Shown in pieces: positions 1 through 25,062 of a stretch of DNA of 25,062 nucleotides; position 1 is the stretch's first letter, and each line of letters begins with the position of its first letter. Origin of the DNA: a virus. The translations under genes and the position numbers were made by a program. The stretch is taken from positions 1 to 25,062 of IMG/VR virus record IMGVR_UViG_3300030107_000470; one strand, written 5' to 3'. The notes beneath the pieces were generated by a model that was not told the DNA's origin, ran no database searches, and worked only from the letters and a program-made list of their open reading frames with translations.

Positions 1-1737
1 TCTGTAACAACGCTAGATATTGGTGGAACAAATGTAACTGCAACAGCAGCAGAAATTAATTTAATAGATGGTGGTACTTCAAGAGGTACTACAGCAGTTG
101 CAGATGGAGATGGTCTACTTGTAAATGATGCTGGTACAATGAGAATGACTAATGTTACAACATTAAAAACATATTTTCAAACAGGCATATCTTCAGCAGC
201 AGACGACATTTCAGCTGGTGATGCAGCAGTTAATCTTACAACATCATCAGGAAACATTACAATTGATGCAGCAGCAAATGATTCAGATATTATATTTAAA
301 GGAACTGATGACAGTTCTGATATTACCATGCTTACACTTGATGGTAGTGATGCAGGATCAGCAACATTTAATCATGATATTATTTTAGGAAATGACTCCT
401 TTGTAAGATTTGGTGATGCTGGTGAAAAAATTACAGGAGATGGAACTGATTTAACAATAAATTCATCTAATGATTTACATTTAACAGCAACAACAGATAT
501 TAACGTTCCAGCAAACGTTGGTTTAACATTTGGTGATGATGCTGAAAAAATTGAAGGTGACGGAACAGACTTAACAATAACTGGTAACAATATTAAACTT
601 ACAGCAACTGCTGATGTTGTTCTAGCAGCTAATACAGGTTTAGTTTTAGATGGTTCTGGTAATGAAAAAATAGAATCAGATGGAACAGATATTTCAATTA
701 GTGTTGGTTCAAATGGAGATATTAATATTCCAGCAAACATAGGTGTAACTTTTGGTGATGATGGAGAAAAAATAGAAGGTGATGGAACAGATTTAACAAT
801 AGCATCTAGTGCTAAAATTAATTTAACCGCTACATCAGATATACATATTCCAAATGATGTTGGAATAGTATTTGGTGGAGATTCAGAAAAAATTGAAGGT
901 GATGGAACAGATTTAACTATAAGTGCAAATAATTTAACAGTGGATGCTGCAGCAGACATTACTTTAGATGCTGCTGGAAATAATTTAACATTTAAATCTG
1001 GTGGAACATCTATTCTTGATATTAGTAATAGTTCAAGTGATGCTGTTATTACTGCCAGCGTTCAAGATAAAGATATTGTATTTAAAGGCGATGACAATGG
1101 AAGTGCTATTACAGCATTAACGTTAGACATGTCTGAAGCAGGTGCAGCAACATTTAATTCAACAGTTACATCTGGAGCAGGATTAGTTATAGCTGACGCT
1201 GGTAACATAGGTTCAGCTTCTGATACAGATGCAATAGCAATTGCTTCAAATGGTGTTGTAACATTTAGTCAAGCACCAGTATTTCCAGATGGAAGTATAG
1301 CTGTAGTAGATTTAGACATAGACGGAGCAACAGATATTGGTGCTGATATAGTAGATGCAGATTTATTCATAGTTGATGATGGAGCAGGTGGAACTAATAG
1401 AAAAGTTGCTGCTTCTAGAATTAAAACATATATTGGTGGTGGTACATCATGGCAAGCAGTTAAAACAAGTAATTTTACAGCATCAGCTGGTCAGGGTGTC
1501 TTTGTTAATACAACATCAGCTGCAATTACAATTACTTTACCAGCAGGAACAATTGGAGACGAAGTATCTATTGTTGACTATGCTGGAACTTTTGATTCTA
1601 ATGCATGTACAGTGGCAGCCAATGGTTCAGAAAAAATATTTGGATCTACAAATGATTTAACAGTATCAACGGAAAGGGCGGCCTTCACTTTAGTATTTAC
1701 TGACTCAACACAAGGTTGGCTATTCAAGAATGATTAA
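1..1737 (+). CDS. Tail fibre-like structural protein, 5' partial
   Basis: The frame is open from base 1, so the gene begins upstream and the ATG at 139 is internal. The visible part is about 578 residues of beta-rich, Gly/Thr/Asp-rich sequence with no catalytic motif. Five copies of a roughly 34-40 residue repeat (core EKIEGDGTDLTI) lie at 409-963. After it comes a module ending DDGAGGTNRKVAASRIKTYI (about 1369-1431), a diverged copy of which is at the left edge (NDAGTMRMTNVTTLKTYF). The last about 90 residues (from ATSNFTASAGQGVF-type sequence near 1465 to the stop) resemble a C-terminal domain that I recall from many marine phage fibre and virion proteins, with VDYAGTF and TDSTQGWLF as landmarks. 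The TAA is followed at once by the ribosome site of the next gene. A virion tail or fibre role is inferred from the repeats and the neighbours. Confidence 0.75.
   Translation, partial: SVTTLDIGGTNVTATAAEINLIDGGTSRGTTAVADGDGLLVNDAGTMRMTNVTTLKTYFQTGISSAADDISAGDAAVNLTTSSGNITIDAAANDSDIIFKGTDDSSDITMLTLDGSDAGSATFNHDIILGNDSFVRFGDAGEKITGDGTDLTINSSNDLHLTATTDINVPANVGLTFGDDAEKIEGDGTDLTITGNNIKLTATADVVLAANTGLVLDGSGNEKIESDGTDISISVGSNGDINIPANIGVTFGDDGEKIEGDGTDLTIASSAKINLTATSDIHIPNDVGIVFGGDSEKIEGDGTDLTISANNLTVDAAADITLDAAGNNLTFKSGGTSILDISNSSSDAVITASVQDKDIVFKGDDNGSAITALTLDMSEAGAATFNSTVTSGAGLVIADAGNIGSASDTDAIAIASNGVVTFSQAPVFPDGSIAVVDLDIDGATDIGADIVDADLFIVDDGAGGTNRKVAASRIKTYIGGGTSWQAVKTSNFTASAGQGVFVNTTSAAITITLPAGTIGDEVSIVDYAGTFDSNACTVAANGSEKIFGSTNDLTVSTERAAFTLVFTDSTQGWLFKND
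409..963 (+). repeat. Five tandem coding repeats in the fibre gene
   Basis: Each unit reads roughly FGDDxEKIEGDGTDLTI followed by about 20 variable residues (LTATxDIxIPANVG). Spacing is 34 to 40 residues and the third unit is the shortest and most diverged (DGSGNEKIESDGTDISI). The DNA copies are similar but not identical, with frequent third-base changes. The pattern fits a repetitive beta-structured shaft. Confidence 0.85.
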
Positions 1738-14454: not shown

Positions 14455-15557
14455 TGGAAGACGATTACGAAAAAGAATTTATGAGGCTCGTGAGTGAGTT
14501 AATGATGGATGGTCTTAGTCAACAAGAAGCAATTGAAGCAGCTAGAGATGAGCTTGATAGATTAAGAAATAAGTTTATGGCTGATGGCGGTAGAGTATTA
14601 AAACAAACAGGCGGTGTAACAGAATCAAGAACATTATCACCAGAATTTATTGAAGCAGCACAAAAAACATTTTTAGCTGATCTTACAAGACAAACTGGAA
14701 CACCAACAGTTACAACTGCAACAACTCAACAACCTGGTGAGACTGCACAACAGTTTGCACAAAGACAAGCATTAGCACAACAATTTGGAATTAGACAAGC
14801 AGGTATGGCTGCTCTTGCACCAACAGTTGCAGATGAAACACAATTACAAAAAGATGCTAGAGGTTTAGCAAGTGGACTTGGATCTTTTCAACCTTTCTTA
14901 ACTAAAGCTGCAACAGCAGCAGATGCAGCAACAGGGTTAATTGGACCAATGACAACAGCACAAAGACAAGCTTACATGTCACCTTTTCAACAAGATGTAA
15001 TTGATACAACGTTAACAGAATTTGATAGACAAGCTCAAGCTCAAAAAGCACAACAAGCAGCTAGAGCATTAGGGACACCTGGTGCATTTGGTGGTGGCCG
15101 TGAAGGTGTACTACAAGCAGAGTATCAAGCGGCAAGTGACAGGAATCGATCAGCTATACAAGCAGGATTATTACAACAAGGATTTCAACAAGCGCAACAA
15201 GCAAGAGCAGCAGATTTAGCTGCACAAAGAGGAATTTCTGCTTTACAATCTGGATTAGGTGCACAACAACAAGCATTAACAAGAGGACAGATATCTGGCC
15301 TTGGTACATTAGGTGCAACACAACAAGCGCAACAACAAGCTGTACTTGATGCACAAAGACAAGCAGCACAAATGGCAGTATCAGAACCTCAACAAAGATT
15401 ATCTACATTAGGTGCAGGTGTTATGGGAATAACGCCAGGTGCAGGAGCAATAAGATTAGATCAAGCACCAGCAGCGCAACAAGCTAGTCCATTAGCAACA
15501 GCGTTAGGTTTAGGTCTTGCAGGTGCTGATATCTATGGAAGGATATTTAATAATTAA
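14454..15557 (+). CDS. Gln/Ala-rich helical internal virion protein
   Basis: This 367-residue protein starts in a TAATG overlap. It has a short acidic helical head (EDDYEKEFMRLVSELMMDGLSQQEAIEAARDELDRLRNKFMADGGRV). A long Gln/Ala-rich region follows, with YMSPFQQDVIDTTLTEFDRQAQAQKAQQAARALGTPGAFGGGREGVLQAEY around residues 180-225 and coiled-coil sequence to about 310. The tail is hydrophobic (ASPLATALGLGLAGADIYGRIFNN). The YMSPFQQDVID to GGREG block recurs in many phage virion proteins as I remember them. The FMADGGRV motif links it to its neighbours. Long helices and a hydrophobic end fit a protein ejected into the cell envelope; function is inferred. Confidence 0.62.
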   Translation: MEDDYEKEFMRLVSELMMDGLSQQEAIEAARDELDRLRNKFMADGGRVLKQTGGVTESRTLSPEFIEAAQKTFLADLTRQTGTPTVTTATTQQPGETAQQFAQRQALAQQFGIRQAGMAALAPTVADETQLQKDARGLASGLGSFQPFLTKAATAADAATGLIGPMTTAQRQAYMSPFQQDVIDTTLTEFDRQAQAQKAQQAARALGTPGAFGGGREGVLQAEYQAASDRNRSAIQAGLLQQGFQQAQQARAADLAAQRGISALQSGLGAQQQALTRGQISGLGTLGATQQAQQQAVLDAQRQAAQMAVSEPQQRLSTLGAGVMGITPGAGAIRLDQAPAAQQASPLATALGLGLAGADIYGRIFNN

Positions 15558-16357
15558 TGTCTAGAACTTTAAAAAGACCAATGTTCAGAAGAGGTGGACC
15601 AGCTAATAATGGTATTATGACTGGTCTTACAGATAGAGAAAAATTTTCAACACAAGGAACTCTTCTTGATGTTGACAGAGCAAGATTAGAATCAAAAGCT
15701 ATACAAGACATTATGAATGAACTTGCACCAATTAGAAAAACAAGAGCACCTCTTGGAACAATAGGTTTTGCTTTAGCAACCGGTGAAGATCCAATAGATG
15801 CTTTAGGTTTAGGTTATAGAGACTTTGTAAAAAGAGATGACGCAAGAAGAGCATTAATAGATAAAAGAAAACAAGCAGCTGTATCAACTGCATTAGGATC
15901 ACAACTATCTACAAAAGGTAAAAGTAAAATTGCATTAGAAAAAATGATAGATTTATCTATTAAAGCTGGAGAGTTTCCAGATACTACAGAAGGAAGAGCT
16001 GCAGCGTTTAAAAAATACAGTATGAGTTCAGGAGACATCACTAGAGCTTCTATACCACAAAAAGTATTAGAGAGATTTAAAGCTTTTTATGCAGGAACAG
16101 GTGGAACTGAAGCAGAAGCAGAATATGATATTTTAAAAGACGAAGGTAAATTAAATATTGAAGGTACAGACTTTGGTAAAAAAGATTTAACAGTTAAAGC
16201 AGATAGAGAAGATATTGCAGACAATGAAGATTTTGGACCTGGTGATGGTTTTGTAGATATAGGTAATGGTAAAGTATATGTATTAAAACCAGGTGGTAAC
16301 AAAGAATCTTTTACAGCAGAAAACTACGAGATAATAGATCTAAAGAGTTTATATTAG
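15557..16357 (+). CDS. Injection-module protein with RRGG N-terminal motif, unknown function
   Basis: This 266-residue protein starts at a TAATG overlap, with AAGGA about 13 bases upstream. The N-terminus MSRTLKRPMFRRGGPANNGIMTGL is a pattern I recall in marine phage virion genes. A mostly helical body follows (AIQDIMNELAPIRKTRAPLGTIGFALATGEDPIDALGLGYRDFVKRDDARRALIDKRKQAA). The C-terminus is acidic and beta-like (DIADNEDFGPGDGFVDIGNGKVYVLKPGGNKESF). There is no enzymatic motif. Its stop overlaps the ribosome site AGGAGGT of the giant downstream gene, so the two are probably expressed together. A structural or ejected role is inferred from position. Confidence 0.6.
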   Translation: MSRTLKRPMFRRGGPANNGIMTGLTDREKFSTQGTLLDVDRARLESKAIQDIMNELAPIRKTRAPLGTIGFALATGEDPIDALGLGYRDFVKRDDARRALIDKRKQAAVSTALGSQLSTKGKSKIALEKMIDLSIKAGEFPDTTEGRAAAFKKYSMSSGDITRASIPQKVLERFKAFYAGTGGTEAEAEYDILKDEGKLNIEGTDFGKKDLTVKADREDIADNEDFGPGDGFVDIGNGKVYVLKPGGNKESFTAENYEIIDLKSLY

Positions 16358-16362
16358 GAGGT
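16356..16362 (+). promoter_or_regulatory. Consensus ribosome binding site overlapping a stop codon
   Basis: AGGAGGT lies four bases before the ATG at 16366 and shares bases with the TAG stop (16355-16357) of the upstream gene. Terminating ribosomes should land on the initiation site of the 1296-residue protein. Confidence 0.8.
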
Positions 16363-16365
16363 TAG

Positions 16366-19300
16366 ATGGCTAAAGATATAGATGCATTTGGCTACTTTGA
16401 CCTTACTCCTCAAGAACAAAGTTCAGAAACAAGTGCAGTTACAGCAGCCATGGCAGGTATTGCATCGGGTGTAATTAAAGTGCCTGAAGGTGTTATATCA
16501 CTTGGTGCAGAGTTAATTGATTTAGGTTTTGATACAGACACTGCAGCAAAAGTAGAACAAGCGTTTGATAAAATAAATGTATTTGAAGACGTAGCAGATG
16601 ACAGAGCTATTGGTAAAATAACAGAAACATTAATACAAATAGGTGTTCCAGGTAGTATAGGTTTTAAATTAGTAAGTGGTGCTGTTAAAGCAAAAAAAGC
16701 TGGTAACTATATGAATGCAGCGGGCATGAATCTACAAAAAGCTGCAAAGAAAGCAAACGATTTTAATAAAACATTAGGTAGAAAAAAATTTGTAGCTGGC
16801 GTTGCAGGTGGAGCTGTAGGAGAAGCATTTGTTGCAGATGTAGAAGATATAGGAAGTTTTGGTGATGTATTTGAAGCTGGACCAACACAATTAGAAGAAA
16901 CTACAGATGAAGGTGGTAGAGAAGATGCATTTAAAAAATTAATGAACAGAACTAAGTTTGGTTCGGAATCATTATTAATTACACCTTTTGTATATGGTAC
17001 AGGTAAAGCAATTAAAGCAGCGGCTACACGTGGTAGAAGAATAGAATTTAGTAACTCTACATTAGATAAATATTTTAATAAAGTATTTTCTGCATTACGA
17101 GCAAGAGGTGCAAAACCACAAGAAATTTTTGAAAGTAAAATGGCAGAAAAAGGTGCAACCATGGCAGATACAAACAGAGCTATGGAATTAGTTAAAAATA
17201 TAGATAGACAAGTAGACAGTATGTTTCCTATGTTTAAAAGTATTTTTGATAAATCAACTACAAAAAACAGAACAGAAATATATAAAACATTAAATGATGT
17301 TTTATTTTCTGACAACATAGGTCAAGATATTTCTAAAGCTAATGTAACAAAAGTTACAAAATTTTTAAAAGATAAAGGAGCTAAAGGTAATGCGGTTAAT
17401 GAAATATTTAAATCTTTAAATGGTGCAAGAGAAACTTTTTCAGAATTAATAAATGCATCATCTAATGCACCTAAAGATGTAAAAACATTACAATCATTGA
17501 TGGGTAACAGAGTAAGGGAATATCTTGGAAATACATATAGAATATTTGAAGATAAATCTATTTTACCATACATGAGATATGCTCCAACAGAAGAAGCTAT
17601 TAAAGACACAAAACAATTTTTTAAAAATTATGCAGCTAAGAATGGTAAAAAACTTACAGACTTTCAAGCAGAAACTATGGTTAACACTATTATTAAAACA
17701 GCACAAAAACAAAAAGGACCTCCAGGTTTACCTTTTAAATATGTTGATGACACAGCTGCAGATGAAGGACCAGAATTAGATAAATTTTTTAAAAATATAT
17801 TAACAGATCAAATTAAACCAGAACGTATTCTTGCTGAAACAAAAGGTAAAGACAAAGCTACAATACAGGCATTGTTTGGTAAAATGGAAGATCCTAGATT
17901 TTCTATATATAATAGTATGACAAAACTATCTGCTATTGCTAGAAAAAATGAATTATTTGAAAAAATTGCTAAACAAGATGATGCAATTAAAAGAACAGTT
18001 ACAAAAAATACACCTGCAGGTGCTAGAGGTTTTTTCTTTGATGATGCATTAGAAGCTGCAGATGCTTTACCTAATCAAGACATAGTAGAATTAGATAAAT
18101 ATTTGTTACCATTTTTTAGAGATGAATTTACAATTAATCCATTGCAAGGTAAATTTACTACAAAAGCTATAGCAGAAGGATTAGGTGATTCATCAAAAGC
18201 ATTAAAATTTTTATTTGAACCTAGACCGGGAGCTACAGGTGTAGAAAAAGGTTTAACATGGGGATATCGTAATTTAATTTTATTTCCAAAAGCATTGTCA
18301 CAAGTAGCAAAAACAATACTTGCGCCAGTAACACATTTTAGAAATTTATTTTCTGCAACAGGATTTTCTGCAGCAAATGGTATATTTTTTGAAAATCCTG
18401 CAATTGTAGCAAGAGCATTTGGTGATGCTTTTGCACCATTACAAACAGGAGCGCCAATAAAAAGAGCTTTAGGTAAAGTAACTGGTGTAGGTTTTGACGA
18501 AGCTGCTGCTAATGCAAGGTATAGAAAACTATTAGATCTTGGTGTTGTAAATTCACAAGTACAACTTGGTGATGTAAAAAATCTTTTACGTGATGTTAGA
18601 TTTGGTGAAAATTTAAACGTTGCAAAACCATTAGAATCTATGATGAAAAAACTTACTGCTGGCACAGCTAGAAAAGCAAAAGGTTTTATGAAAGGTGCAG
18701 AAGATTTATATACAGCAGAAGATGATTTATTTAAAATAGCAAACTTTGCTGTTGAACGATATAGATTAAAAAATGCATATACTGCAGCAGGTAAAAAATT
18801 TACAGATGATCTTTTAGATAATGAAGCAGCAGATATCGTAAGAAACACTGTGCCTAATTATGCATATGTATCTGACACAGTTAGAGCATTAAGACGTTTA
18901 CCACTTGGAACATTTATGTCGTTTCCATCTGAGATATTAAGAACAACAACTAATATTGCACAAAGATCATTAAAAGAAATAAAAGATCCAGCGTTAAGAA
19001 ACATTGGTATTAAAAGATTAATAGGTCTTGGAACAGTTTTAACAATAGCACCAAATGCAATACAATCAGGATTTCAAATTGCTAACAATGTTACAAACGA
19101 ACAATTACAAGCATTAAAACAATATCTACCTGATTGGTCTAAAAATTCTACAATACTACCAATACGATCAAAAGATGGTGAATTAAAATATATAGATTTT
19201 AGTCACGGTAATGCATACGACGTAGCTACAAGACCTATACAAACATTAATTAATGAAGTGCAAAGAGGTATTACAGATGAAGAAGTATTAATGAAAGGTG

Positions 19301-20256
19301 TATTACGTGGTATGGCAAAAGCTGCAGGTGAATTAGCTGATCCGTTTATATCAGAAGCAATCTACACAGAAGCTGCTTTAGATATTATTACAAGAGGTGG
19401 TCGAACAAGAGAAGGTAGACAGCTATATACTGAACGAACACCTGATGGAGAAAAAATAAAAATTATAACAAATCATTTAGCTAGAGCTATGTTACCTTTT
19501 TCGTATCAACAACTTAATAGATTATATCAAGCAGCAGCTGACAAACCATCTGAGCGTGGAGAATTTTTTGAAGTGCCGGATGAATTAGGTGGATTCATAG
19601 GATATAGAGCTGTAAAAGTAGACCCTGTAAGATCTATAGGATTTAAAATAGCAGATTATAAAAGAGGTATTAGAGAGTCAAGATCGTTGTTTACAGGTGG
19701 TCCAGAATCAGTTTTAAAAGGTGGACCTAAAACTCCTAAAGATGTTATTGAAAGATTTTTTATTGCAAACAAAGCAAGATTTAATGTTCAAAAAGAAATG
19801 TTAAAAAATATAGAAGCAGCAAATATTTTGGGAACTGACATGAGAAAATTTAGTCAAGAGTTTGCTGAAAGAGGTCTTGGTAAAACTTATGGAAGACTAA
19901 GAAGAAAAGATTTTAATCCATACTTTCCATCACAAGATATATTTAGAGAGTTTGAACAAATATCTAAAAGAATAGGTCAACCTAATCCTATGAAAGCAGC
20001 GTTAGGAACAATTAGATCTATGTCTAGAAGATTAAATCGTTTAAGATTAGATGATGAGTTTGATTTAAATCTTGATGATTACCTACCAGATCCAGATATG
20101 TTAGATCAATCTGCAGCATTACCTACACCACCTGTAAGCCCACAAGTAATACAACCAATACAAACTACAATGCAAACAGGTTTAACACCTACAGAAACTG
20201 CGTTGCTTTCTGAAGAAGAAAAAGCTATAAGGTTAAGACAGAGAGGAATGGCGTAA
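16366..20256 (+). CDS. Giant internal virion (ejection) protein
   Basis: At 1296 residues this is the largest gene in the window. It is mainly helical and basic, with no recognisable lytic or polymerase motif. Early hydrophobic, Gly/Ala-rich stretches (VTAAMAGIASGVIKVPEGVISLGAELIDLG at about 25-54; FVAGVAGGAVGEAFVADVEDIG at about 142-163) and a middle hydrophobic block near 634-675 (NLILFPKALSQVAKTILAPVTHFRNLF) suit a protein that passes through the tail and inserts into membrane. The last 60 residues are proline-rich, with PTPPVSPQVIQPIQTTMQTG. Length and position after smaller internal proteins parallel T7 gp16 and P22 gp16, but I see no lysozyme-type catalytic domain. It is coupled to the next gene by TAATG. 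The ejected-protein role is likely but not proven. Confidence 0.65.
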   Translation: MAKDIDAFGYFDLTPQEQSSETSAVTAAMAGIASGVIKVPEGVISLGAELIDLGFDTDTAAKVEQAFDKINVFEDVADDRAIGKITETLIQIGVPGSIGFKLVSGAVKAKKAGNYMNAAGMNLQKAAKKANDFNKTLGRKKFVAGVAGGAVGEAFVADVEDIGSFGDVFEAGPTQLEETTDEGGREDAFKKLMNRTKFGSESLLITPFVYGTGKAIKAAATRGRRIEFSNSTLDKYFNKVFSALRARGAKPQEIFESKMAEKGATMADTNRAMELVKNIDRQVDSMFPMFKSIFDKSTTKNRTEIYKTLNDVLFSDNIGQDISKANVTKVTKFLKDKGAKGNAVNEIFKSLNGARETFSELINASSNAPKDVKTLQSLMGNRVREYLGNTYRIFEDKSILPYMRYAPTEEAIKDTKQFFKNYAAKNGKKLTDFQAETMVNTIIKTAQKQKGPPGLPFKYVDDTAADEGPELDKFFKNILTDQIKPERILAETKGKDKATIQALFGKMEDPRFSIYNSMTKLSAIARKNELFEKIAKQDDAIKRTVTKNTPAGARGFFFDDALEAADALPNQDIVELDKYLLPFFRDEFTINPLQGKFTTKAIAEGLGDSSKALKFLFEPRPGATGVEKGLTWGYRNLILFPKALSQVAKTILAPVTHFRNLFSATGFSAANGIFFENPAIVARAFGDAFAPLQTGAPIKRALGKVTGVGFDEAAANARYRKLLDLGVVNSQVQLGDVKNLLRDVRFGENLNVAKPLESMMKKLTAGTARKAKGFMKGAEDLYTAEDDLFKIANFAVERYRLKNAYTAAGKKFTDDLLDNEAADIVRNTVPNYAYVSDTVRALRRLPLGTFMSFPSEILRTTTNIAQRSLKEIKDPALRNIGIKRLIGLGTVLTIAPNAIQSGFQIANNVTNEQLQALKQYLPDWSKNSTILPIRSKDGELKYIDFSHGNAYDVATRPIQTLINEVQRGITDEEVLMKGVLRGMAKAAGELADPFISEAIYTEAALDIITRGGRTREGRQLYTERTPDGEKIKIITNHLARAMLPFSYQQLNRLYQAAADKPSERGEFFEVPDELGGFIGYRAVKVDPVRSIGFKIADYKRGIRESRSLFTGGPESVLKGGPKTPKDVIERFFIANKARFNVQKEMLKNIEAANILGTDMRKFSQEFAERGLGKTYGRLRRKDFNPYFPSQDIFREFEQISKRIGQPNPMKAALGTIRSMSRRLNRLRLDDEFDLNLDDYLPDPDMLDQSAALPTPPVSPQVIQPIQTTMQTGLTPTETALLSEEEKAIRLRQRGMA

Positions 20257-22694
20257 TGGCAATAGATTTTGAATCATTCATAGCAGACCCAAAAATAACA
20301 GATCCTGGAATAGATGTATCCGGTATTAAAACTACTACACCTACCAGACAAGAATTATTATTTGATTTACCAGAATTTTCTGGAATTCAAGTTGATCCAA
20401 CTAGAGCATCTTACGTAGAAGATATATATAGAGCTTATTCTGGACAGATACCTAGTATTCCAGAACCAGTTGTTACAACACCACCAGTAACAAGTGGAGT
20501 AGGAACAGGCGACGGGGGACAAGCGACTACACCTATCACTACACCTACAACAACGGTTGGAACAAACACAGCAGAACAACAAAGATTAATAGATGCGGGT
20601 ATCGGAGTGCAAGCAGCACCAGGACAACCTGTTGTAGCGCCAGGTGAGGTACCAGTTACGCAAGCAGAAATAGATGCTTTTAATCAAATACCTGTAAATA
20701 CAGATTTTAGAAATCAACAATTAGTAAATCAAGGAATAGGAGTTAGAGTTGGAGACACAGGCCCTGTTGTAGCGCCAGGTGAGGAACCAGTTACACAGGC
20801 GAAAATGGACGAATTTAATGAAGAACAACAAAGCACTCTTCAAAATATATTAGGTCAAGCAGGTCAAACTGTTCAAGGAGCTATGAATCAATTAGGTAAG
20901 ATATCAGGATCTGTAGTAGATTTTGCAAATCAAACAGTAGATATATTTGGTAAAAAAATAAACGTAGGTAAAACTTTAGCAGCAGCTGCCATTAACAAAA
21001 TAGCAGGTGGCCCTGTAAGTTTAGTATTTGAACTATTACCTAAAGACTCAATAGAAAATAAAACAACAAGAGGTGTGGTTGATACATTAAAAGCAGAAAA
21101 AGATTATGGATTTAATATGCAATCTGGAAATTTAAATCAAGATCCTTTTGGTAGAAATCCAGTGTCTGCTTTTGGTAATTATGAACAAACATTATTAGAT
21201 GACATAGCTGGAGTAAATCAATCAGGATTTGAAACAGCAAAAATGAGAGAAAAGAAAAAAGAATTTGCACAAGATTATTTTAAAAAGAAAGCTGAATTTG
21301 CTGGTGGTGTTCAACAAACTTCAGATCAAATATCAGACATTCTTGGCCCTGGAGAATTTAAACCTGAAGGTGAGAATTTAGTTTCGCTAGAGAATCAACT
21401 TGCAGAACAAGCAAAAGAAAGAGCAGCTCAAAATGAATTAGCAAAATTAACAGGTGATGTTGATTTTGATGTTCCTACAAAATCTCAACCAGTAACAGGC
21501 ACCAAGGGACCACAAGTTACAGCACCAGTGACAGGCGTCACGCGACCAGGGACGGTTTTAGGTAAACCTGGCATTGAAAGATTTGATGATGCAGAAACAG
21601 ACATTGGTGGTAAAATACCAGCAGGTGCATCAACAACAGGAACTCCTGTAGATGCTTTAAATCCTGTTAACAGACAACAACATTTTGATAATACACAGAA
21701 ATTAAAAGATGCTGTTGCAGAAGGTAAAATTACAAATGAAGAATATAACAAGCTTAGTGCTTTTGATGCAAGAAAAACAATGGGATTAGGGACAGTAACA
21801 GGGACAGCAAGTGCTGCAATTTATCAAGGTGTTCAAACAGGAATAGGAGCATTAAGAGAAACTTTAGGTATAAATCCAGCTTTTGCAGGTGATCAATCTC
21901 TTGCAGAGGCAGCAGGCGATACTGCTAGAAATATTCAAGGTGTATCAGGAAACATAACACCAGAAGAACAAGTTAAATATCAAGAAATTATTAGTGGAGA
22001 AGATATATACAGAGATCCTATTTTAGGTATGGTTGAACCATCTGCACCAATGACTTTAGCTGACGATAAAATAAATACAATGACAGATGATGTAGATTTA
22101 GATCTTTTTGATACTACACCATCAGCACCATCTATTCCAACGACAGGCATAGACATACCAGATCCAAGTCCAACACCTTCATTTACACCAAGAGGTGGAG
22201 GAGCAGATAGAGATCCTGCACCATCACCATCACCATCACCAAATGAAGCAGCAGGTCGAGCAGCAGAAAATGCTCAAAGAGCAGCAATACAAGAAGCTGC
22301 AAGAGCTGGTATGACTGTAAACCAAGCAAAAGCATCTGTTGGAATGCCTGCAAATTTAGGCGACACAGGCGGCGGTGACAAAGGCGGCGGAGGCGGCAAA
22401 ATCGTCTGCACTATGATGAACGAATCTTATGGTTTTGGATCTTTTAGAAATAAAATATGGATGAAGTTTCATAAAAATCTTTCACCAGAATATCAAAGAG
22501 GATACCATAAACTATTTTTACCATTAGTTAAAATTGCTAAAACAAATAAAATAGTTAAAAAAATATTAGAACATATTGCAGTGCATAGCACTATAGACAT
22601 GAGACAATCCATGAGAGGTAAAACTCATTTATTAGGTAGAGCGTATAGAAAAATATTATTACCACTTTGTTACTGGGTAGGTAAAAATGCCTAA
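20256..22694 (+). CDS. Long Pro/Gly-rich virion protein with conserved C-terminal module
   Basis: This 812-residue protein starts in a TAATG overlap with AGAGGA eight bases upstream. Residues 60-105 are Pro/Thr-rich and disordered. A duplicated 34-residue unit occupies residues 111-144 and 156-189 (core PVVAPGExPVTQA). Residues 215-260 are Ala/Gly-rich with a hydrophobic segment (TLAAAAINKIAGGPVSLVFELL). Helical regions then alternate with Pro-rich linkers (PSPTPSFTP; APSPSPSPNEAA). A Gly-rich hinge (GGGDKGGGGG) leads into a compact basic end of about 98 residues from 715: KIVCTMMNESYGFGSFRNKIW, GYHKLFLPLV, then RAYRKILLPLCYWVGK. I recall that last module at the C-terminus of many unrelated phage proteins, function unknown. 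The stop overlaps the holin-like gene by eight bases. Confidence 0.65.
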   Translation: MAIDFESFIADPKITDPGIDVSGIKTTTPTRQELLFDLPEFSGIQVDPTRASYVEDIYRAYSGQIPSIPEPVVTTPPVTSGVGTGDGGQATTPITTPTTTVGTNTAEQQRLIDAGIGVQAAPGQPVVAPGEVPVTQAEIDAFNQIPVNTDFRNQQLVNQGIGVRVGDTGPVVAPGEEPVTQAKMDEFNEEQQSTLQNILGQAGQTVQGAMNQLGKISGSVVDFANQTVDIFGKKINVGKTLAAAAINKIAGGPVSLVFELLPKDSIENKTTRGVVDTLKAEKDYGFNMQSGNLNQDPFGRNPVSAFGNYEQTLLDDIAGVNQSGFETAKMREKKKEFAQDYFKKKAEFAGGVQQTSDQISDILGPGEFKPEGENLVSLENQLAEQAKERAAQNELAKLTGDVDFDVPTKSQPVTGTKGPQVTAPVTGVTRPGTVLGKPGIERFDDAETDIGGKIPAGASTTGTPVDALNPVNRQQHFDNTQKLKDAVAEGKITNEEYNKLSAFDARKTMGLGTVTGTASAAIYQGVQTGIGALRETLGINPAFAGDQSLAEAAGDTARNIQGVSGNITPEEQVKYQEIISGEDIYRDPILGMVEPSAPMTLADDKINTMTDDVDLDLFDTTPSAPSIPTTGIDIPDPSPTPSFTPRGGGADRDPAPSPSPSPNEAAGRAAENAQRAAIQEAARAGMTVNQAKASVGMPANLGDTGGGDKGGGGGKIVCTMMNESYGFGSFRNKIWMKFHKNLSPEYQRGYHKLFLPLVKIAKTNKIVKKILEHIAVHSTIDMRQSMRGKTHLLGRAYRKILLPLCYWVGKNA
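20586..20822 (+). repeat. Duplicated 34-residue unit
   Basis: Two copies at 20586-20687 and 20721-20822 lie 135 bases apart. They share GIGV, PVVAPGExPVTQA and a terminal FN. At DNA level 19 bases (20631-20649 and 20766-20784) are identical. It may be a structural repeat or a small binding module. Confidence 0.8.
22221..22240 (+). repeat. Hexanucleotide microsatellite coding Pro-Ser
   Basis: Three CCATCA units plus CC encode a PSPSPS stretch in the proline-rich linker of the 812-residue protein. Such a tract could vary in length by slippage. Confidence 0.7.
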
Positions 22695-22863
22695 AAAGTC
22701 AGCATTACAAAAGATAGAGGATCATGAGAAACTTTGCAGAATAATGCAAAGGCAGACTTTTGATCAGATTAAAGAATTAAAAACACAGATTGTTAGAATA
22801 GAAAGACTACTAATTGGTACAGCTGCTTTTGTAATAGTTAGTTTATTAGATAAAGTTCTTTAA
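22687..22863 (+). CDS. 58-aa coiled-coil plus membrane-anchor protein, holin-like
   Basis: This short frame begins MPKKSALQKIEDHEKLCRIM, continues as a charged heptad-like helix (QIKELKTQIVRIERL), and ends in one hydrophobic segment LLIGTAAFVIVSLLDKVL. Helix then C-terminal membrane span in under 70 residues is the plan of XhlA-type holin accessory proteins. GGTAGG lies five bases before the ATG. The gene overlaps the preceding stop by eight bases and its own stop shares TTAA with the opposite-strand helicase. A role in lysis or membrane anchoring is inference from shape and from its place at the end of the late gene block. No endolysin is seen next to it. Confidence 0.65.
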   Translation: MPKKSALQKIEDHEKLCRIMQRQTFDQIKELKTQIVRIERLLIGTAAFVIVSLLDKVL

Positions 22864-24290
22864 ATCCAAGCTTTCAACTCTTCACCCATAACCTGACTTG
22901 CAATATTAACTTTCTTACGTAAAGCTTTTACAATTCTTTCATCGACTGTATCCTCACATATAATATCAATGTATGTCATAGGTTTAGTTTGACCAATACG
23001 ATCTATACGAGCTTCTGATTGTTGTCTTTTTTCTAAATCATAACCATTAGAATAATACACCATATTTGATGCAGCTGTAAGTGTAATACCATAGCCACCA
23101 GTTTGCGGTGTACCTATAAAAAACTTACACTTGTCATCTTCTTGAAAACGTTTTATGTTTTGTTGTCTTTCATCTTGAGGTGTTAACCCATAATAATCTA
23201 CAAAAGAATCTTGACCAAATTCTTCTGAAATAGCTTTTATAATTTGTCTAACATCACTTTGCCAGTGGGCCCAAATAACAACTTTACCTTCTATTTCATT
23301 AAGAACATTTATTAATTCTTCAATACGATTGCTTTTTAATTCTTGCGTAGTGCCATCATCAGATTTAAAATGACCACACGTTATTTGTTGTAGTCTCATT
23401 AATTGTGTCAATGCATTTGCTGTCGTTAACATTTTACCATTTAAAATAGCTAATGCTTCTTTTTTCATTTGAGAATAAACTTTTAATTGTTCTGATGTTA
23501 ATTGAACTACTCTTTTCATAAAAGTTTTTTTAGGTAAATCTAAACAATCATCTTTTAATACTCTGTAAGAAAAAGGTTTTAATTTATCTGATAACTCACC
23601 AAGGTTACGATAACCAACAACAATTTGTACTGATCTACCACCAAAGTTTGCAGTCTTCATTATTGCATATCTAGTTCTAAAAGAATAATAAGAACTATGA
23701 TCTAGAAGCCAAGGGTCAAGAAACTCACATTGTTTGTATAAATCTAATGGCGATTTGGTTACAGGAGAGCCTGTAAGTATTCTTTTACACACAGCATATC
23801 TACCAAGAGATACTATGTTTTTAGTTCTTTTAGCTTCTGGATTTTTTATAGTTGTAGACTCATCTATGGCCATTAATGTTTTGTGTGAGTTTAAAAATTT
23901 TGCAGCAAAATCAACACCTTTTTTTGTAGAGAATGCTTCAACATTCATAATTAAAATATGTAAATCAATACCTGTTTGAAACAATGTGTCTAAATATTGT
24001 TTTTGTTTTTTTGTAATATTTGCTTGCCACAATACCGCCTTATTCTCAATGTGTTTTGGCAAATGTGCAGGGATTTCTCCGGAGTACCAATTTTTATATA
24101 CACCTTTTGGTGCTACAATTAAGACTCCATCTATTTTACCCTTATCATATAACATAGCAATATTATCTAATAATACTTTAGATTTACCGGTACCCATTTC
24201 CATAAAATATGCATAAGCTTTTTTCTCCCAAGACATTTCTAATGCTTTAAGCTGATGAGCGTAGGGCTTAGTTTTAAATTTATAATTCAT
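22860..24290 (-). CDS. SNF2-type superfamily 2 helicase/ATPase
   Basis: This 476-residue protein has the complete motif set: Walker A MGTGKS (32-37), motif Ia VAPKGVYKNW (59-68), DEST motif II (143-146), TGSP motif III (173-176), TGGYGITLTAAS in the second domain, and motif VI QSEARIDRIGQ (424-434). This is the compact phage version of SNF2 helicases. It would act in the cytoplasm on DNA, using ATP, in replication, recombination or removal of bound proteins. It is the only minus-strand gene here. The start ATG is about 13 bases from a predicted start site given by the palindromic promoter at 24305-24338. The leader has only a weak AGAAAG ribosome site. The gene ends against the holin-like gene with both stops sharing TTAA and no room for a terminator. 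Confidence 0.93.
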   Translation of the reverse strand: MNYKFKTKPYAHQLKALEMSWEKKAYAYFMEMGTGKSKVLLDNIAMLYDKGKIDGVLIVAPKGVYKNWYSGEIPAHLPKHIENKAVLWQANITKKQKQYLDTLFQTGIDLHILIMNVEAFSTKKGVDFAAKFLNSHKTLMAIDESTTIKNPEAKRTKNIVSLGRYAVCKRILTGSPVTKSPLDLYKQCEFLDPWLLDHSSYYSFRTRYAIMKTANFGGRSVQIVVGYRNLGELSDKLKPFSYRVLKDDCLDLPKKTFMKRVVQLTSEQLKVYSQMKKEALAILNGKMLTTANALTQLMRLQQITCGHFKSDDGTTQELKSNRIEELINVLNEIEGKVVIWAHWQSDVRQIIKAISEEFGQDSFVDYYGLTPQDERQQNIKRFQEDDKCKFFIGTPQTGGYGITLTAASNMVYYSNGYDLEKRQQSEARIDRIGQTKPMTYIDIICEDTVDERIVKALRKKVNIASQVMGEELKAWI

Positions 24291-24304
24291 TTTCTACTTT
24301 CTAG

Positions 24305-24333
24305 TTGACAATATAATATTGATAACCTATATT
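24305..24333 (+). promoter_or_regulatory. Rightward sigma70-type promoter
   Basis: TTGACA (24305-24310) is a perfect -35, the spacer is exactly 17 bases, and TATATT (24328-24333) matches five of six -10 positions. Transcription should begin about 24340-24341, at or next to the ATG of the gene to the right. Confidence 0.8.
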
Positions 24334-24338
24334 GTCAA
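24310..24338 (-). promoter_or_regulatory. Leftward sigma70-type promoter for the helicase
   Basis: Read on the minus strand, TTGACA is at 24338-24333, the spacer is 17 bases and TATATT is at 24315-24310. The start would be near 24303, giving a leader of about 13 bases before the helicase ATG at 24290. The -35 of each promoter shares one base with the -10 of the other. Confidence 0.78.
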
Positions 24339-24340
24339 GC

Positions 24341-24706
24341 ATGAAAGAAAATAATTTGTCAGTTGTATATGTAATACAAGAGATACCAGGAACTAAATCA
24401 GGTAGTCCTAAAATAAATATTATGGGTGCTTCAGAATATGGTGAGTTTAAATTTTTATTACCAGAGTTCTCTCAAATTATTTTTTCTCCTGGTCCTTTAA
24501 TATATAAGTTAAGACAAAAATTAAAAAATTTTAAACCACATGATTATTTACTACTTACAGGTGATCCTGCAATAATAGGTGTTACATGTTCTATTGTTTC
24601 AGATATGACAAGTGGTAATTACAATTTACTTAAATGGGACAGGCAAGAAAGAAAATACTATCCAATAGCAATAAATTTATACGAGAAAGGAGATATAAAT
24701 GAATAA
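24341..24706 (+). CDS. Conserved-looking phage early protein, unknown function
   Basis: This protein of about 121 residues begins MKENNLSVVYVIQEIPGTKS. The ATG at 24341 is preferred over an in-frame TTG at 24332 because the TTG lies inside the -10 box, upstream of the predicted start of transcription. No ribosome site precedes it, so the message may be leaderless. The body has IMGASEYGEFKFLLPEFSQIIFSPGPLIYKLRQKLKNF, then HDYLLLTGDPAIIGVTCSIVSDMTSGNYNLLKWDRQERKYYPIAINL. I recall similar proteins near replication genes of marine phages but no known activity. It overlaps the next gene by eight bases and would be co-transcribed with it. Confidence 0.75.
   Translation: MKENNLSVVYVIQEIPGTKSGSPKINIMGASEYGEFKFLLPEFSQIIFSPGPLIYKLRQKLKNFKPHDYLLLTGDPAIIGVTCSIVSDMTSGNYNLLKWDRQERKYYPIAINLYEKGDINE
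24687..24694 (+). promoter_or_regulatory. Ribosome binding site of the last gene
   Basis: AAGGAGAT lies four bases before the ATG at 24699, inside the end of the preceding gene. It is a strong match and sets the start. Confidence 0.75.
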
Positions 24707-25062
24707 TTTACAAAAAATGTTCATAGAAGATGCACCTCAACAAGTTAATGATTTGAACAATGTTGAGACATTATCTAGCCATGTTTTAGAATTACAAAAA
24801 CTAGAAGATGAAATTAAAATAGAAGAGGAAAGACTTTCGAGAAAAAAAGAACAATACGATAAGCTTTCACAACAAGTCATACCAGAAATAATGGAGTCTA
24901 TGAAATTAAAAACAATGAAATTAAGAGATGGTTCTGGCATAGAAATAAAAGAAATTTATAGCGCTACAATACCTTTAGATAAAAAAGAAGGCGCATTTAA
25001 CTGGCTTCGAAACAACGACTTAGGTGATTTGATTAAGAATGAGATCACTGTTTCCTTTGGTC
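24699..25062 (+). CDS. Coiled-coil early phage protein, 3' partial
   Basis: About 121 residues are visible and the frame is open at the window end. The N-terminal half is a coiled coil (HVLELQKLEDEIKIEEERLSRKKEQYDKL). It is followed by IPEIMESMKLKTMKLRDGSGIEIKEIYSATIP and KKEGAFNWLRNNDLGDLIKNEITVSFG. The pattern of helix, then K-L-x-DG-x-x-I-x-[IV]-K-x-x-YSA, then WLR-x-N-x-x-x-D-x-IKN-x-[IV]-[TS]-x-x-FG matches a small protein family I remember in many podoviruses near DNA replication genes, without a proven function. It overlaps the preceding gene by eight bases and has its own good ribosome site. Confidence 0.78.
   Translation, partial: MNNLQKMFIEDAPQQVNDLNNVETLSSHVLELQKLEDEIKIEEERLSRKKEQYDKLSQQVIPEIMESMKLKTMKLRDGSGIEIKEIYSATIPLDKKEGAFNWLRNNDLGDLIKNEITVSFG

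Follow-up and report, generated by a model that had tools for sequence, protein, structure and literature searches.

The divergent junction and its facing hexamers

The window analyzed here, a stretch of 25,062 nucleotides, derives from a 29,674-base virus fragment. Near its right end, an SNF2-related helicase gene and a gene of family phrog_5888 diverge from a short intergenic region (Table 1). Downstream from the phrog_5888 gene are genes for Pam3 gp33-like and gp34-like proteins, a primase, and a UvrD-type helicase. Elsewhere in the window, the plus strand between positions 1750 and 6856 encodes long tail-like proteins of repetitive sequence in which GTQTAALAFGG motifs recur.

The element at this junction ends 14 bases from the helicase ATG and 2 bases from the rightward ATG. 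Its letters are TTGACAATATA ATATTGATAACC TATATTGTCAA, or TTGACAATATA-N12-TATATTGTCAA in short form, and the two arms make up a perfect inverted repeat of 11 bp around a 12-base center. On either strand, TTGACA is followed after 17 bases by TATATT, and bases 24310 and 24333 are each common to one −35 hexamer and the opposing −10 hexamer. This geometry had been described in the initial annotation, and it proved exact on re-reading of the letters. Each arm consists of a −35 hexamer and a reversed −10 hexamer and has no other content. The flanking bases (G on either side) and the first and last bases of the center (A and C) are unpaired, so the symmetry stops at the hexamer edges.

Table 1. Features at the divergent junction (window coordinates)
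Feature	Position	Strand	Evidence
Leftward gene, SNF2-related helicase (PF00176, phrog_62)	22860–24290	−	PHROGs and Pfam matches
GAAAG at predicted leftward transcript start	24297–24301	−	Shine-Dalgarno-like
Interlocked promoter element (predicted), 11-bp inverted repeat with 12-base center	24305–24338		Letters; exact arms in at least 119 viral contigs
−35 hexamer TTGACA, predicted rightward promoter	24305–24310	+	Invariant in 69/69 distinct flank-anchored 34-mers starting TTGAC
−10 hexamer TATATT, predicted leftward promoter	24310–24315	−	Promoter match; one position varies in 7/69 34-mers
Center, 12 bases	24316–24327		Varies between relatives
−10 hexamer TATATT, predicted rightward promoter	24328–24333	+	Promoter match and conservation across 34-mers
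−35 hexamer TTGACA, predicted leftward promoter	24333–24338	−	Promoter match and conservation across 34-mers
First rightward gene (phrog_5888, Pfam Pam3_gp32-like)	24341–24706	+	PHROGs and Pfam; ATG at predicted transcription start
GAAAG at predicted rightward transcript start, inside first codons	24343–24347	+	Letters; relatives' ATG distances

Each direction carries sigma-70-type hexamers (6/6 and 5/6 matches) at a spacing of 17. Within positions 15000–25062, the two hexamer pairs of the element are the sole promoter matches of 11 of 12 positions, and promoter matches of all grades show no excess there (37 observed versus 41.9 in shuffled sequences). The window has two occurrences of TTGACA-17-TATATT, versus an expectation of 0.015. 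Inverted repeats of 11 bp with loops of 3–20 bases are not rare by themselves (one observed, 0.27 expected). Thus, the inverted repeat alone could be due to chance, but its conservation could not; the element is not a chance occurrence, because exact arms with a variable center recur in at least 119 viral contigs (see below). No tRNA was found, and no terminator-like match lies at the site.

The rightward message would most likely be leaderless, with the A of the gene's ATG (24341) as its first base. In 81 of 101 distinct elements, the distance between the beginning of TTGAC and the rightward gene's first open ATG is 35–37 bases, although element length ranges from 33 to 38 bases. The count of 81 rises to 84 if a later ATG is counted, and in the other 17 the ATG lies elsewhere or is absent. 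A distance that remains constant despite varying element length fits a transcription start at the ATG, and it is indirect support for a start 6–8 bases beyond the −10 hexamer, as sigma-70-type promoters have. The end of the −10 hexamer is exactly 7 bases from an ATG in 67 of 147 interlocked sites (class-A loci), and the remaining distances, chiefly on the helicase side, are 13–29 bases. One-way promoters of the same phages sometimes have a −10-to-ATG distance of 6–7 bases as well. The leftward message is predicted to start near 24302 and to have a ∼12-base leader. Each predicted transcript has a GAAAG motif at its start, and the leftward one is Shine-Dalgarno-like and presumably pairs as such.

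Conservation at junctions of related phages

A scan of 2.9 million viral contigs recovered at least 119 stretches with exact arms and a variable center. Among the matches listed, the common flanks are broadly CTTTCTAG before and GCATGAAAG after the element, and the center differs from phage to phage. A flank-based search was used so that loci would not be picked by their arm sequence. It returned 84 distinct inserts, and both arms are exact in 59 of them; eight of the 84 have no TTGAC near the start and were taken as chance matches, and another two were set aside because they were out of register. In the 69 distinct 34-mers starting with TTGAC, 18 of 22 arm columns are invariant. The four remaining columns fall within the −10 parts, and the center is loosely conserved. 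Fifteen variants of 33 or 34 bases have a single altered arm (the left in 11, the right in 4), and none of the 15 has a mirror-compensating change in the same context.

Junctions were also located through their genes. Exact arms are present in 14/79 junctions found with the window helicase, 16/78 found with the rightward gene, and 0/78 found with the helicase of phage HTVC027P. TTGAC facing GTCAA is present in 77/79, 75/78, and 1/78 of the same sets, respectively. Judged from these comparisons, what evolution keeps is the predicted face-to-face promoter pair and not the perfect mirror. The initial annotation had staked its case on symmetry being retained in close relatives that keep the gene order. 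Perfect symmetry is indeed lost in such relatives, but the facing −35 elements persist.

Two designs account for nearly all of the relatives' junctions. Of 235 examined, a number that leaves out five loci with <60 bases before the match (L036, L109, L136, L317, and L320), 153 are interlocked (97 distinct, 33–38 bases), 74 have a shared −10 element (36 distinct), and eight have neither form. Relatives of HTVC027P have a single central TATA-like −10 element common to both directions, flanked by TTTACT and TTGACT on opposite sides. In 30 of their 35 scored junctions, 23 bp separate the predicted start sites (one of 36 has no plus-strand match). Relatives with 33-bp elements carry TATATG or TAGAAG, where position 6 of the −10 hexamer is not T, and these are weak by E. 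coli standards. Left and right arms are of mixed types in relatives L113, L116, L152, and L156.

On a helicase tree of 217 rows, the distinction between shared and interlocked forms requires two changes. The exact palindrome requires 26, with at least 18 forced by supported branches, on a tree in which rows picked for the palindrome are over-represented (exact-arm loci L161–L275 are included). Exchange of junctions between phages is possible. Among annotated phages, DNA matches to the region were found in the Pelagibacter phages HTVC027P and HTVC023P and in phage 023Pt_psg01, and the exact palindrome is absent from the matching region of all three. The best reading is that the element belongs to a group of Pelagibacter phages related to HTVC027P.

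Rearranged loci are informative about which feature the two-way form accompanies. The rightward gene was found in 381 loci, which overlap and are not independent. The helicase gene is divergent and adjacent in 359 of these, 13 have an insert in between, and nine are cut short. The two-way element is kept at the divergent junction in all 11 of the insert loci taken in (L340 and L347 were left out). An exact palindrome precedes an inserted rightward gene in five loci (L166, L174, L205, L217, and L259) and follows an inserted leftward gene in L198. Nonexact interlocked forms are at the divergent junction in L098, L148, and L157, and a shared −10 element is there in L332 and L334. The displaced rightward gene in L098, L148, L157, and L166 has its own TTGACA and TATATT with no opposing TGTCAA, which corresponds to a one-way promoter. 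Because the two-way form stays with the diverging pair, the symmetry belongs to the divergence and to neither gene. The inserted gene of L174, L205, L217, and L259 starts directly after the palindrome, between the helicase and rightward genes, and encodes a protein of ∼480–520 amino acids with an N-terminal glycine-rich motif that by eye resembles those of FAD enzymes.

A scan for further copies gave ten matches away from a recorded helicase start, and the reversed-sequence control gave none in 1.44 million bases. Six were ascribed to junctions whose helicase gene is cut off or outside the comparison (L175, L200, L273, L367, L369, and L418), and the L198 match was ascribed to a moved junction. 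Two interlocked pairs exist in addition to the main junction, at L419:3504 and in L388. The former (L419:3504–3537) lies where genes for a terminase small subunit and a protein annotated without function diverge. Its terminase-side ATG is 7 bases after the −10 hexamer, and at the main junction the rightward gene has the same distance. The exact palindrome has a single location in each of the nine larger records tested, which argues against a repeated operator. Six of these nine records have further matches to TTGACA-16..18-TATNNT, and those inspected in G001, G003, G004, and G007 are upstream of genes and mostly have TATATT.

Proposed competing promoters and alternative explanations

The best explanation for these data is that the element probably comprises two strong, interlocked, mutually exclusive host sigma-70-type promoters, with the left one serving the SNF2-type helicase and the right one serving early replication genes. 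Opposed core elements overlap between divergent genes, and this arrangement is kept in 153 of the 235 junctions. The hexamers and their spacing, their conservation, their tie to divergent junctions, the ATG distance, and the confinement of arm changes to the −10 parts all favor this explanation. The weak −10 hexamers of 33-bp relatives, the very high conservation of the arms, and a lean toward joint change of paired arms (see below) were counted against it. The proposal of the initial annotation that a divergent promoter lies at the helicase/early-gene junction is strongly supported by the comparative evidence, namely conserved two-way elements and the insert loci.

If this explanation is true, then the geometry would have two polymerases compete for the same DNA. 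With each −35 hexamer abutting the opposing −10 hexamer, host RNA polymerase could occupy only one promoter at a time, and each genome copy would start either leftward into the helicase gene or rightward into the early replication operon. A palindrome would arise simply because both promoters have the same favored hexamers at the same spacing, and binding by a dimer would not be needed. The perfect mirror would be the state in which both promoters sit at the same favored sequence. Promoter activity, the start points, mutual exclusion, and early timing are predictions of this model. HTVC027P is described as encoding no RNA polymerase and using that of its host (PMC12753301).

The alternative that survives best is nevertheless unlikely, and holds that the palindrome is an operator where a dimeric regulator of phage or host origin contacts both arms, thereby blocking or balancing the two promoters. 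The near invariance of the arms (18 of 22 columns among 69 elements) exceeds that of many promoters, and a second symmetric arm type, TTGACATATA/TATATGTCAA, is present in 12 of 115 rows. In addition, six bacterial contigs carry the same palindrome, often with symmetry reaching into the flanks. Two of these copies (L410:486–519 and L412:2516–2549) are just upstream of XRE/ImmA-like regulator genes (HTH_3 plus Peptidase_M78), and it is possible that they serve as autoregulatory operators. In the phages, however, the symmetry ends at the hexamers, and the single-arm variants and mixed arm types described above count against an operator. A tree test of paired arms, which leaves out the exact-arm loci L161–L275, gave 3.8 same-way changes and 0.0 opposite changes (median p 0.125), a lean toward joint change that is not significant.

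Searches for a regulator cover part of the genes. No DNA-binding family was found among eight proteins near the junction compared with PHROGs and Pfam, and none stood out among ten proteins compared with Pfam or ten compared with PHROGs (overlapping lists, each with nine proteins from the 84 ORFs of one relative and a tenth from L416). A 61-amino-acid protein (L413:353–538) suspected by eye of having a ribbon-helix-helix fold was supported as such by neither Pfam nor PHROGs. The phrog_5888 protein was also considered as a repressor and rejected. No DNA-binding protein among its structural neighbors stands out as a simple repressor fold, and it bears a weak CARF/SAVED resemblance. The dimeric repressor and compact switch put forward in the initial annotation are not supported, given the absence of compensation in 15 arm variants, the mixed arm types, and these protein comparisons, which take in part of the genes.

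The E. coli bioA/bioB genes have facing, overlapping promoters around a palindrome that is the operator of a repressor. The predicted phage promoters face each other and overlap in the same manner, but their arms contain promoter hexamers only, and the partial scan revealed no repressor.

It is highly improbable that the element is a packaging, recombination, or replication site with an incidental promoter match. An inverted repeat with a free 12-base center is similar in form to cohesive-end sites, and the records of HTVC027P, 023Pt_psg01, and HTVC023P are cut here. But these three records begin exactly at the ATG of gene 1, a likely choice of an annotator, and the terminase genes are 12–20 kb distant. 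Moreover, contigs continue through the element, the element tracks divergent gene pairs, and a shared −10 element takes its place in HTVC027P relatives. Equally improbable is an RNA hairpin in a leader or terminator: its 11-bp stem is assumed to be stable, but both predicted transcripts start outside the repeat and neither contains it.

Comparison with known divergent promoters

The preferred reading of two interlocked promoters has precedents. Bidirectional promoters of E. coli and other prokaryotes likewise consist of pseudo-symmetric DNA with two divergent starts, and in the available text only one polymerase is bound at a time, with strong −35 elements creating competition (PMC12825309; PMC10268837). 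As defined by Warman, Grainger, and colleagues, the starts are 7–25 bp apart and the −10 elements overlap (PMC10268837, available text). The window element falls outside this definition, as judged from predicted starts: These are at 24302 and 24341, 39 bp apart, the −10 elements are separate, and each −35 element overlaps the opposing −10 element. In contrast, the HTVC027P relatives do fit the definition by their predicted distance of 23 bp, a value among those commonly reported for bidirectional promoters (PMC12825309, available text).

The Pc and Pr promoters of plasmid pLS20 are also divergent and on the same DNA, and polymerase binds only one of the two at a time (PMC4207663). That system differs in pairing a weak promoter with a strong one and in its use of a dedicated regulator and DNA looping, and a perfect palindrome of equal promoters is not described in the available text of its report (PMC4207663). 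Overlapping divergent promoters are themselves already known. The interlocked pair is ordinary in its parts and unusual in its compactness and spread.

Our literature search found no study of pelagiphage promoters, and the word "promoter" is absent from the available text of two pelagiphage papers (PMC12753301, main text; PMC9599517). Pelagiphages are abundant in the ocean. A conserved, recognizable early promoter pair could help to locate promoters in uncultured relatives. The junctions also offer a natural series for testing how two polymerases share a site, in which the arms are equal, one arm is weakened, a direction is lost, or the −10 element is shared. We tentatively speculate that the element is a divider that operates without a regulator. 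Equal interlocked promoters would force a choice between helicase and operon for each incoming copy, polymerase exclusion alone would set the balance, and one phage group would use two symmetric designs, interlocked and shared −10, at the same junction.

The product of the first rightward gene has no solved relative that could be found by sequence. Its structural model (pLDDT 77) has as its nearest solved structures mostly CARF/SAVED domains and ring nucleases of CBASS and type III CRISPR systems. The similarity is below the level of kinship (Foldseek best E 0.011; VIA-align best Z 7.9, rmsd 3.3, 105 aligned). Two rows among the structural neighbors belong to Csa3, a CARF-type transcription factor, and there the match covers the N-terminal part of Csa3. 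The modeled resemblance offers a lead that this may be an early counter-defense protein.
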